This document shows positions 2,640 to 23,109 of a DNA stretch of 64,000 bases, piece by piece. The notes under the pieces were generated by a model that saw only the letters and a list, made by a program, of their open reading frames with translations, made no database searches and was not told the DNA's origin. The position numbers and the translations under genes were made by a program. Where the stretch lies: assembly GCF_900111745.1 (NCBI RefSeq), contig NZ_FOIJ01000001.1, positions 868,001 through 932,000 on the forward strand, written 5' to 3'. Each line of letters begins with the position of its first letter. Within the stretch, counting starts at the first letter, position 1. This DNA comes from Stigmatella erecta. GTDB taxonomy: Bacteria > Myxococcota > Myxococcia > Myxococcales > Myxococcaceae.

Positions 2640-4637
2640 TCACCGATCCTTGGCCTTCTTTATCTTCTTCGCCTCGTCTGACAGCAGCTCCCCCAGCGAC
2701 GGGATGCCCTCGATGTCTCCCTCATCATAGGCTCCGCCATCGGCGTCCAGTGGAGGCGGTCCCGAGGCCGCGCTCCCGGTGAGGCTCTCGTCGAAGAGGA
2801 AGCTCTCCAAGTCCTCCGAGGCCGCGTCATGGACCTTGGAAGTGACGTCGTCGATCAGGCCGTCCACCTTATCCGGCGTCATCTCGGGATCGCGAGACCC
2901 CATCTCATAGATGGACTGTTTGAGAATGATGTCGGTGTACCGCTGGAACAGGTACTCTCGCCATCGTGCGCTGTCGGCACCGTAGGCATCCATGATCTTG
3001 TTCGCCAGCGGTCTGGCGGTGTTGATCCAGTAGATGCCGTGCTCGATGTCCTCGGCACGTTGGTAAACGGGCGGATGGCGCTCGTCGCAGAGGAACGGGT
3101 TTGTAGGGTTCGGATCTAGCGGATCCATATCGTGGCCCGAGAGAAGGACGCGCGGAAATCGAGGCCCCTTCTTCTTGATGTCCCCGCTCCCCCCTCCCTG
3201 CCCCTCGTCGTCGCCGTCTCGCCCCTTCTCTTCTTTGGGGCTTGCTTCATCTCCCCTGCCTCCCTTTCCCTCACCAGTGCCTCCTCCTACACCTCCCCCC
3301 CCGCCGGTACCACCGAAGGAGCCGCCAATGCCAGCCCCACCGAAGATCTCGGCGCTTAGCTTTGTCATGAACTTGTTTTTCCAGCGGTCCAGCAAGTGGT
3401 TGAACTGCGCGGACTGCCGCAAGTCCCGGCTCTTCTTCTCATCCCGGGTTTTGTCCGCCATTTCCTCCGCGAGCTTATCAACATGCTGCCGGATCCACTC
3501 CAGCAGCGCATCGGTGCGCTCGTTGGGCACAAGCTTCTCGCGGTCGTTCTTCACGCAGTCAAGCTTCTTGTCCTCCATCAGCGGGCATTCGCACTCGCCG
3601 TAGATGAACTCGGTCTCGGGTCCGAACCTCATATACCCAAGCTCGTGCATCCGATAGGAGCCGATGCACCCGATCTCTCCCAAGATGTCGACGGAGTTCA
3701 GGGCGGCCAACTCGCCCGAGCGCGCGAGAGGCTGCTCTGCGGTATAGAGCGTCAGCTTCCCTTCCGGATATTCCTTGTTTCGGAATTCGAAGGTCTCTCC
3801 CTTGAAGTCGAACTTCCTCGGCAACGGGATAACTCGGGGCTCCTCGAACCCAACGCGGGGGGTGATAGTGGGCGTAGTGAGCCGCTTACCCCAGTGCTGC
3901 GCGTGAGAAAGGACGTAGACCTGCTTGTGCGCGAGTACGCGCCGAGCCTGTGGGTGGAAACGGAGCCGCTCTAGGATGGACTCGATAGTGGCCCGCCCGC
4001 TGAAGCGGTCTGGACGCTCGCCCCGGACGACCGTGAAGCCAACGTTCTTGGGGGAGCGCTTCCACCGCTTCCGCACGACGTCAGGGACATCCAGCTTCTC
4101 GATGCCGGCGAAAGCCATTGCCTCATCGATAGTCATTGCTTTGTCCACTAATCCTTGCGCGTAGCCATAGCGCCGCTTCTCGTCGAAACCGAAAACGTTC
4201 AGCTTCCCATCCCGATAGGTGATGAACCTGGACTTGCCGAACATCTGACGCATGTAGAATTTGCCGCCGTTCCCGTGGCCCCCGAACGTCTTGATGTCAG
4301 TGCCACGCTTGGCCGCAGTGGGCAAGCCCCAGATCTTCACCGCCTTGTCTATGTTCACTCTCGTCATCCCGACGAAGTCGATGCACTCAAAGACACTCTC
4401 CTTCTTCGGGTTGCCTTGTTTGAACCGGAGGAGAATGAACTGCTCTGCGTCCTTCACCTGCGCGGTGGTCGAGTAAGCGTCCGCCGAGTTCTTCATCCAC
4501 TCGGCCAAACCCTTCGCGTGGTCGAACTTGAACTCGTTTCCGACTACGTCGAGGAAGGCGTCGTCGAACGAATTCTTCTCAGCCTTGATCTCGGCATTCA
4601 CGTCCAGATTCGCCCCAGCACGGCCCTTTGACGCCAT
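2640..4637 (-). CDS. GHKL (MutL/MORC/Hsp90-type) ATPase in a modification operon
   Basis: The protein has 665 residues. The N-terminal ~200 carry the Bergerat-fold motifs: N-box E46-xxx-N50-xx-D53 (AEWMKNSADAY), G1 motif around D87 (DFVGMT) and the glycine-rich lid GGHGNGGK (119-126). A middle region of ~300 residues would be the transducer domain. A Gly/Lys/Glu-rich low-complexity linker at roughly 425-490 leads to a C-terminal domain rich in charged helices. Such ATPases dimerise on ATP and act as DNA clamps or switches; MutL-like and MORC-like GHKL proteins are known partners of prokaryotic modification systems. It starts one base after the upstream stop and is followed at 4 bp by the methyltransferase-Vsr gene. 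No nuclease motif is evident. The precise role is unknown. Confidence 0.8.
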   Translation of the reverse strand: MASKGRAGANLDVNAEIKAEKNSFDDAFLDVVGNEFKFDHAKGLAEWMKNSADAYSTTAQVKDAEQFILLRFKQGNPKKESVFECIDFVGMTRVNIDKAVKIWGLPTAAKRGTDIKTFGGHGNGGKFYMRQMFGKSRFITYRDGKLNVFGFDEKRRYGYAQGLVDKAMTIDEAMAFAGIEKLDVPDVVRKRWKRSPKNVGFTVVRGERPDRFSGRATIESILERLRFHPQARRVLAHKQVYVLSHAQHWGKRLTTPTITPRVGFEEPRVIPLPRKFDFKGETFEFRNKEYPEGKLTLYTAEQPLARSGELAALNSVDILGEIGCIGSYRMHELGYMRFGPETEFIYGECECPLMEDKKLDCVKNDREKLVPNERTDALLEWIRQHVDKLAEEMADKTRDEKKSRDLRQSAQFNHLLDRWKNKFMTKLSAEIFGGAGIGGSFGGTGGGGGVGGGTGEGKGGRGDEASPKEEKGRDGDDEGQGGGSGDIKKKGPRFPRVLLSGHDMDPLDPNPTNPFLCDERHPPVYQRAEDIEHGIYWINTARPLANKIMDAYGADSARWREYLFQRYTDIILKQSIYEMGSRDPEMTPDKVDGLIDDVTSKVHDAASEDLESFLFDESLTGSAASGPPPLDADGGAYDEGDIEGIPSLGELLSDEAKKIKKAKDR

Positions 4638-22208: not shown

Positions 22209-22844
22209 TCAGGCCGCGATGGAGGGAGCGCCCGAGGTTGGGAGCGCTGGGGGCTGCGAGGCGTGTTGTTCCTGGGTGTAGGGGATGCGGTGCCGCTCAA
22301 GAAACTCGAGGGAATACCGCTTGGGATATTCCCGATACCACTTGAGCAGGGTCGCCTCCCCCAGCTCTTCCCCCAGCTCGTCATAGATGAAGCCGTACTG
22401 CCGCTTCAACGAGGCTTGGTACCGTTTCATGAAGCGCTCGGGGTTGGCTTCATAGCGCTTGCGATCTCGCAGCTTGTCGCTCGAGTTCGCGGGCAGGTGG
22501 TGGACGAAAATGCCCAACCGGTCCAGGCAGTAGCGCTGGTAATCCAGCGTGTACTGCATGAAGGTGTGCCACATCTCATCTATCATGAGCAGCGGGGCCT
22601 GCACGGCCAGCCGAGGCCCCTTGGCCTCGAGACTGCGTGCGCAAAGCCATAGCCATTTCTTCGTTTCGTGGAAGAGCTCACGCGCCTCCGCTTCGGGGAC
22701 GGCATAAGTGTCCAGGAAACGCCGGAGAACCTTCTCGTTGCGGTAGGACAGGGCCTCTGACAGCGAGCACACCTTCTTCCCTCTTGGAGACCGGAGGTTT
22801 TGCTGCCCGCGCGCGGTCCTTTTCTTCGCTGCCTTTTTCATCAT
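22209..22844 (-). CDS. GRPD/DUF1399-like protein next to a cysteine-repeat peptide
   Basis: The protein has 211 residues. A basic N-terminus (MMKKAAKKRTARG) precedes a helical domain. Its centre, MIDEMWHTFMQYTLDYQRYC (87-106), followed by GIFVHHLP (111-118), resembles the D-xx-WH...Y...HH-P core of glycine-rich domain-containing protein-like (GRPD, DUF1399) proteins; the biochemical activity of that core is unknown to me. The conserved Asp/Glu, Trp-His and His-His residues could bind metal. The start is one of two adjacent ATGs after GAGGG; the frame extends 33 codons further up, but that part overlaps the peptide gene. It is 77 bp downstream of the peptide gene, across an RNA hairpin, and is the natural candidate for its partner or maturation factor. 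Confidence 0.6.
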   Translation of the reverse strand: MMKKAAKKRTARGQQNLRSPRGKKVCSLSEALSYRNEKVLRRFLDTYAVPEAEARELFHETKKWLWLCARSLEAKGPRLAVQAPLLMIDEMWHTFMQYTLDYQRYCLDRLGIFVHHLPANSSDKLRDRKRYEANPERFMKRYQASLKRQYGFIYDELGEELGEATLLKWYREYPKRYSLEFLERHRIPYTQEQHASQPPALPTSGAPSIAA

Positions 22845-22875
22845 GCCCTCGATCGCGTCTCCCGGAAGAACGCAA

Positions 22876-22905
22876 GTGCCATCGCTCTTTGGCGGGCGAT
22901 GGCAC
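22876..22905 (-). promoter_or_regulatory. Perfect 10-bp hairpin between the peptide gene and the GRPD-like gene
   Basis: gtgccatcgc (22876-22885) and gcgatggcac (22896-22905) form a perfect stem with a 10-nt loop. No T-tract follows on the minus strand, so it is more likely a processing or partial-attenuation structure than a full terminator. A stem at this position would raise peptide transcript over the downstream gene, a common arrangement after precursor-peptide genes. Confidence 0.55.
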
Positions 22906-22921
22906 CCGCGGCCGAAATGCC

Positions 22922-23074
22922 CTACTTGCTGCCGATCCGGCAAAGGTTGCAGAACATGCAGAAGCTACAGATCTTACAGATATCAATGGGGCCCTGGGTG
23001 CTGTCCTTCACCAGCGCGGAGATGAATTGATTGGCCTTCTTCGAGCGGGTCTTCTTCGCATGGGTCTTCGTCAT
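22922..23074 (-). CDS. 50-residue peptide with a CxxCxxCxxCxxC C-terminus (candidate modified or metal-binding peptide)
   Basis: The ATG at 23074 follows GAGGTG at normal spacing. The first ~16 residues are strongly basic (KKTRSKK), then comes NQFISALVKDSTQGP, then the tail CKICSFCMFCNLC (residues 33-45) and RIGSK. Five cysteines fall on every third position, with Ile, Phe and Leu between them. A leader-like N-terminus plus a distinctive Cys-rich end is what precursor peptides of RiPP pathways look like. The overlapping CxxC pairs would equally suit Cu(I), Zn or Fe-S binding. No radical-SAM, lanthipeptide synthetase, YcaO or MNIO gene lies nearby in the window; the GRPD-like gene downstream is the only candidate partner. 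I know of no described family that matches. Confidence 0.6.
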   Translation of the reverse strand: MTKTHAKKTRSKKANQFISALVKDSTQGPIDICKICSFCMFCNLCRIGSK

Positions 23075-23109
23075 GAGACACCTCAAGGGGGGGCAAGTGA
23101 GACGCTAGT

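Follow-up and report, generated by a model that had tools for sequence, protein, structure and literature searches.

What does a short Cys-rich peptide do beside a larger protein that matches no annotated family? The question is raised by two adjacent minus-strand genes in a 64,000-nucleotide stretch of the Stigmatella erecta genome (hereafter the window; contig NZ_FOIJ01000001.1, positions 868,001 to 932,000). An initial annotation of the letters alone had read them as a two-gene system for a modified Cys peptide, whose state might be thioether, oxidized or metal-bound. Comparison with related loci leads us to favor, as the likelier account, a minimal cassette for a ribosomally synthesized and post-translationally modified peptide (RiPP), in which the short gene encodes the precursor and the large gene an MctA-like maturation or carrier protein. 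The pair probably makes its modified peptide by a route not yet described. The roles are assigned in this way on two grounds: members of the same protein family contain or adjoin a Cys-rich segment, and a secreted microcin cannot be made without MctA.

A constrained peptide gene and its partner

The peptide open reading frame (ORF) translates in full as MTKTHAKKTRSKKANQFISALVKDSTQGPIDICKICSFCMFCNLCRIGSK and carries five cysteines at C-x2 spacing in residues 33-45. Its start codon follows a Shine-Dalgarno-like element (Table 1), in keeping with the good ribosome binding site described initially. The large gene begins 77 nt further on and encodes DEMWHTF and HHLP, the D-xx-WH...HH-P core seen at the outset; its product has no Cys in the last 30 residues.

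With a profile built on the large protein, close homologues appear at E<=1e-6 in 8 of the 195 genomes from the window's phylum. In a search of 392 genomes, 12 match: the planctomycete Candidatus Uabimicrobium amorphum is one further strong match, and the other 11 are distant (E 2e-19 to 4e-7). The coupling of the two genes proposed by the initial annotation recurs among these relatives. Reading of the neighborhoods places a short Cys-rich ORF beside the homologues of G032, G033, G056, Uabimicrobium and the Aureibacter tunicatorum plasmid pAT2; a sequence search that takes the window peptide as query does not recover the first three peptides. Eleven close-homologue loci were tallied (4+1 from the window's genus, G032, G033, G056, Uabimicrobium, Aureibacter and E. 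coli, with 25 E. coli records counted as one and with the genus loci and G032/G033 not independent). In nine, a short Cys-rich ORF stands apart from the large gene on the same strand, eight upstream and one downstream; one, in E. coli, has a Cys-rich segment fused at the C-terminus of the large protein; and one has neither. The separate-peptide loci belong to Myxococcota, Planctomycetota and Bacteroidota. Upstream peptides are separated from the large gene by about 65 to 125 nt (start codons partly assumed), and the G056 peptide lies about 34 nt 3′ of its homologue.

Within the genus, both genes occur in four of seven genomes, the large gene alone in one (G041) and neither in two. A search of 96 family genomes with the window peptide gives seven matches at E<=1.2e-8, confined to four genomes; the remaining 10, spread over ten other genomes at E 0.12-0.94, seem to be chance matches, and one in G039 (E=0.24) is taken in the same way.

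The peptide ORF is under purifying selection. Nonsynonymous and synonymous substitution values (dN/dS) are 0.14/0.49 for G000/G038 and 0.18/0.48 for G037/G038, a ratio of about 0.3-0.4. G036 differs from the others, over 31 codons, by dN 0.06-0.18 and dS 0.19-0.35 (ratio 0.2-0.7), and G000/G037 (0.07/0.08) is uninformative. Three orphan paralogues of the peptide (G000 contig 6, G036, G038) are also constrained, with dN 0.02-0.04 and dS 0.37-0.68, and all three genomes carry an intact pair elsewhere. Because of this constraint, the orphan paralogues and the recurrence of the peptide, a spurious ORF is rejected.

A small basic peptide that comes first in a two-gene unit and is differently placed in related genomes could also be a toxin-like or regulatory small protein, with the partner acting as antidote or regulator; no peptide natural product would then be made. 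We consider this very improbable: orphan peptides occur without an intact neighboring partner, the Cys-rich tail is fused to the partner in E. coli, and neither window protein has a PADLOC match at E<=0.1. A defense system is rejected for the window proteins on that same lack of a match; the Uabimicrobium protein has one weak PADLOC match (E=0.036). Four scans of viral contigs for the system confirmed no match, and a phage search returned one weak record.

The orphan on G000 contig 6 (406898-407184; L006) is followed by an eroded partner remnant covering query residues 147-186 at 67.5% identity, a case of partner loss beside a still-constrained peptide. No convincing remnant is found in the 15-16 kb surrounding the G036 and G038 orphans. 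The Aureibacter pair (L045:1-10513) lies within an apparent metal or heme uptake operon (CobN, TolQ/ExbB-type, DUF2149, TonB receptor, DUF4374), and next comes a 310-aa protein for which Pfam gives nothing significant (best E=0.16).

Leader-like motif and variable Cys-rich ends

RiPP precursors usually combine an invariant leader with a changing core. The parts preceding the first Cys in six peptides (those of the window and its orphan paralogue, G032, G056, Uabimicrobium and Aureibacter) share an ungapped 12-mer starting about [AK]-[NDEM]-[QT]-[LIF]-[IL]-x-x-L-[VL]. Its score of 332 compares with a mean of 89.5 and a maximum of 154 in shuffled sets, and 0 of 500 shuffles reach it. When each peptide is left out in turn and compared with 2890 small ORFs from 347.5 kb, the G032, G056 and Uabimicrobium peptides stand above every unrelated ORF, and one unrelated ORF beats the Aureibacter peptide. 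The window peptide is tied to the motif through the orphan copies (16.25 and 19.25 vs 10.75).

The Cys-rich ends diverge: CKICSFCMFCNLC, CRICSICSVFCNIC, CDICFIFCNIC, CIPPCVVCSVC, CFCCIGC, CNGSCNGECSGGSCNGQCSSGNC and CSNCGHC, with 3 to 6 Cys per separate peptide. The initial annotation had taken the exact fivefold CxxC spacing, which does hold in the window peptide, as the feature to follow among relatives; since one ortholog reads C2C2C3C2C (figures giving the residues between cysteines) and the orphans C2C3C2C, it is dropped as a defining feature. Judged by sequence, a conserved leader motif with divergent Cys-rich ends is a RiPP-precursor signature.

The window system thus resembles RiPP systems in general in its short precursor ORF under coding constraint, its leader-like motif (weak in the window copy taken alone), its variable Cys-rich core, its dedicated and recurring neighbor, and the ABC transporters of some relatives. 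The latter include, in G056, a DrrA-type ABC ATPase that follows the peptide and, elsewhere, an ABC exporter, with a DUF1854 protein, directly downstream of the Uabimicrobium pair. The dedicated partner itself falls into no known enzyme family and has no confident fold.

In the mechanism we propose, the 50-aa peptide would comprise a leader of about residues 1-32, with a recognition motif around residues 14-25, followed by the Cys-rich core. The 211-aa MctA-like protein would bind the leader and would either mature the core or carry and protect it, possibly by way of a metal site built from the conserved Asp, His and His-His residues; it may accordingly be an enzyme or a carrier. The product would be exported by a transporter encoded elsewhere in the window genome and may have an antagonistic or metal-related role in the myxobacterium; some relatives have an adjoining ABC transporter.

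Microcin 1229 and the wider MctA-like family

A tblastn search of plasmids with the window protein matches 33 records, 25 of them from E. coli (35.2% identity, E=7e-21, query residues 24-188), and an alignment shows shared invariant residues. The E. coli protein ends in VCGCSGKGCGAGCSCNSR. Its gene is followed on the 3′ side by an ABC transporter (an exporter, directly downstream) and by a JmjC_2/cupin protein. The same protein, Cys-rich tail included, is encoded at 3094-3792 of p0.1229_3, where it is mctA.

According to the 2022 paper on microcin 1229, in-frame deletion and complementation establish that mctA, mctB (ABC) and mctC (cupin) are each required for activity, the mct operon is iron-repressed with Fur control of mctA, and uptake proceeds via CirA/TonB (PMC8853679). 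The same paper remarks that MctA-like ORFs have a Cys-rich C-terminus and gives the chemical identity of the microcin as unknown (PMC8853679). The expectation of unprecedented chemistry voiced in the initial annotation is partly overtaken, because microcin 1229 is already a genetically characterized relative; it survives in so far as the chemistry of that relative was unknown in 2022. The three phyla, the conserved leader, the variable Cys end and the homology to MctA give good support to the annotation's picture of two genes, one of them for a precursor-like peptide that is Cys-rich and bears a leader.

The window pair is like mctABCDE of p0.1229_3 in having a partner homologous to MctA. It is unlike it in that MctA bears the Cys-rich segment as a C-terminal tail, whereas in the window that segment has a gene and a leader to itself, and in that no ABC transporter, cupin/JmjC, DUF4440/DUF2164 or immunity gene occurs among nine neighboring ORFs scanned in the window. 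In the open-licence literature, as represented by titles and the starts of abstracts, nothing joins the MctA-like family to Cys-rich precursors except the remark in PMC8853679. Another paper describes JmjC proteins fused to a RiPP recognition element (RRE), with bacterial relatives in RiPP-like contexts (PMC12710340).

The E. coli Cys-tailed homologue (L044 and plasmid records) sits on small plasmids, mostly of 7.9 kb and typed mobilizable, where the gene is mostly annotated as hypothetical. Of 5,426 complete E. coli genomes, 88 contain at least part of the 3.9-kb region and 30 contain at least 80% of it, all on plasmids.

Could the peptide instead be a metallothionein-like metal buffer, which the partner loads or senses metal for without covalent modification? 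A short CxxC-rich peptide would suit this role, as would several neighbors: a YHS-domain protein and an apparent metal P-type ATPase (by eye) near the Uabimicrobium pair, the CobN, ExbB-type, DUF2149 and TonB-receptor genes around the Aureibacter pair, and a cadmium transporter near a Rhodococcus ruber homologue. Iron (Fur) control of mctA (PMC8853679) points the same way. However, no metal gene occurs among the nine window neighbors, the layout is that of a leader with a variable core, and RiPP-type enzymes stand near wider-family members, including JmjC_2 in E. coli. We therefore regard metal buffering as improbable.

Beyond the close homologues, a C-x(1-4)-C motif falls in the last 30 residues of 16 of 33 wider-family proteins, against 2 of 114 myxobacterial ORFs (nominal Fisher p=1.4e-10, relatedness ignored). 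The comparison ORFs were called heuristically, and seven of them are themselves MctA-like; a group of similar myxobacterial proteins (L069-L073, L075, L076) has no such tail. The 33 were read out of 37 wider-family loci, leaving out L092, L095, L101 and L102; inspection by eye shows a Cys-rich tail in L092 and none in L095. An ATP-grasp ribosomal peptide maturase (TIGR04187, E=4e-33, below cut-off) and a 2-oxoglutarate oxygenase adjoin the R. ruber homologue, and a glycosyltransferase-like gene (Pfam matches below cut-off) and an ABC exporter lie near an Agrobacterium homologue. The latter arrangement recalls glycocin clusters. In glycocin systems, as in MNIO (DUF692)/bufferin systems, a dedicated partner handles Cys-containing ribosomal peptides. 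The window pair differs from the MNIO/bufferin type in that no MNIO or DUF2063-type gene occurs among its nine scanned neighbors, to which the search was confined.

The wider family also suggests another role for the Cys segment. Homologues of Planctomycetota, Streptomyces, Nonomuraea and rhizobia have short tails such as CGSC and CSQC, and the conserved Asp/His/His-His residues could bind metal; a metal or redox centre might then be built jointly by the MctA-like domain and a CxxC-rich strand, which would lie in cis in much of the wider family but be split off as a small subunit in the window group. On this view the Cys segment would belong to the working protein and would not be a secreted product. 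This is the main rival to the precursor reading, and we hold it to be unlikely. Divergent ends with 3 to 6 Cys behind a conserved N-terminal motif are the reverse of what a conserved subunit would present, orphan peptides exist without an intact adjoining partner, and MctA is required for a secreted microcin (PMC8853679).

The reading of the pair as precursor and maturation or carrier protein also has to accommodate a number of observations that weigh against it. The C-x(1-4)-C tail motif is missing from 17 of the 33 wider-family proteins, and many of the tails are merely CxxC, seemingly too short for a RiPP core. In G041, whose contig region is that of Hyalangium versicolor L004, a close homologue stands without a peptide. 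Without its paralogue, the window peptide is matched or beaten on the leader motif by 67 unrelated ORFs among the 2890, six of them with at least 3 Cys. No other part of the E. coli protein resembles the leader as well as the stretch before its tail, but that resemblance is not significant (1175 of 5000 shuffles), and a fused leader there is set aside as not significant by itself. Neither a family nor a fold could be detected for the partner, which has only sub-cutoff matches in Pfam, NCBIfam and PHROGs. Finally, as the initial annotation had noticed for RiPP enzymes, no exporter, protease or known RiPP enzyme was found by profile among the nine neighbors (RRE models were not searched).

No Pfam family matches the window protein at E<=1, and NCBIfam gives nothing for either window protein; for the E. 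coli homologue it gives only indoleacetate decarboxylase activase (E=0.00047, 19.6 bits vs a cut-off of 425). PHROGs matches are weak and scattered. Two AlphaFold models from three-sequence alignments are all helical and too poor to use (predicted local distance difference test 53 and 49), Foldseek against the PDB returns nothing at E<=0.001, and the best PDB sequence match has E=0.13.

The window protein had been likened to the GRDP-like PF07173 family (DUF1399, plant glycine-rich domain proteins) by its D-xx-WH and HH as seen by eye, and one E. coli RefSeq record (H125) names the relative a "glycine-rich domain-containing protein". Profiles lend this no support: PF07173 has no match at E<=1 in the window protein and five homologues, nor at E<=0.1 in one more, so the GRPD/DUF1399 label stays a resemblance. 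PF07173 matches none of the 96 genomes, but its controls were equally silent, which makes that search uninformative. Literature on DUF1399 and GRDP-like/COG4278 proteins is, by title, mostly on plants.

More broadly, and only tentatively, the MctA-like domain may be the founding member of a new family of RiPP maturases or carriers, with a D-xx-WH...HH metal site that acts on Cys-rich cores, whether these are fused to its C-terminus or presented in trans by a leader peptide, in at least Myxococcota, Planctomycetota, Bacteroidota and Pseudomonadota; this somewhat doubtful proposal would explain the chemistry of microcin 1229. Whatever its fate, the locus connects a two-gene unit that lacks annotation with a microcin known from experiment but chemically unsolved, through a protein family that lacks a Pfam or NCBIfam model at cut-off and that, in more than one phylum, accompanies Cys-rich peptides either in cis or in trans. 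Testing should be simpler with the separate-peptide form than with the fused form of E. coli, since it offers a 50-aa substrate, a 211-aa partner and no other constant neighbor. It also supplies a mining rule for further products: an MctA-like protein with a Cys-rich tail or a neighboring leader peptide.

Several wider-family loci have features of their own. In Streptomyces sp. NBC_01136 (L047:1373-3675), a 178-aa protein whose N-terminal segment is leader-like (score 106) and whose C-terminus has six Cys adjoins a homologue and a 347-aa protein that is cupin-like by eye (no Pfam match), a possible related cluster. Streptomyces sp. NBC_01220 (L050:1695-2956) has a radical SAM gene and then a 42-aa ORF about 1 kb from the wider-family homologue. 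The C-terminal half of the Azospirillum ramasamyi protein (L054:3878-4705) consists of DCLRxAxxA-like repeats with regularly spaced Cys.

Intergenic hairpin and local setting

Table 1. Features of the gene pair, in window coordinates.
Feature	Positions	Strand	Remarks
50-aa Cys-rich precursor-like peptide ORF	22922..23074	-	50 codons; ATG at 23074, stop 22924-22922
Putative Cys-rich core CKICSFCMFCNLC	22940..22978	-	Read from translation; compared with relatives' Cys-rich ends
Shine-Dalgarno-like GAGGTG	23079..23084	-	4 nt 5′ of peptide ATG
Leader-like motif ANQFISALVKDS, residues 14-25	23000..23035	-	Counterparts KNTLIEKLVKQN / KMQLIENLVEKN etc.; six-peptide motif set
211-aa MctA-like (GRPD-like) protein	22209..22844	-	ORF 22844-22209; DEMWH...HH core
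RNA hairpin between both genes	22872..22909	-	14 bp; conserved, covarying

The hairpin reported initially between the two genes is real by comparison: it is kept in all four genus loci with the pair, where 13 or 14 of its 14 pairs are standard and two positions are altered on both strands of the stem. The minimum free energy of the gap is -36.7 kcal/mol. No T-run follows the hairpin, so it is not a canonical terminator, and it is absent from the terminator-like sites predicted in our scan; it may have a transcript-stabilizing or processing role. A promoter scan found none for the pair and one promoter-like site, on the plus strand.

The nine neighboring ORFs (RlmN, 3-dmu-9_3-mt, PadR, CN_hydrolase/LNT, GAF, S16, tRNA_m1G_MT, RimM and one without a match) are housekeeping or unrelated; RlmN does belong to the radical SAM proteins, yet its function is a housekeeping one. 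When genes are called heuristically and compared by blastp at 1e-5, the large gene alone matches between the window's neighbors and those of G036, G037, G038 or G041. The G036 and G038 loci are mutually syntenic, and the G037 and G041 neighborhoods share one 28% match. Given the non-matching neighbors and the G036/G038 synteny, the unit occupies about four contexts.
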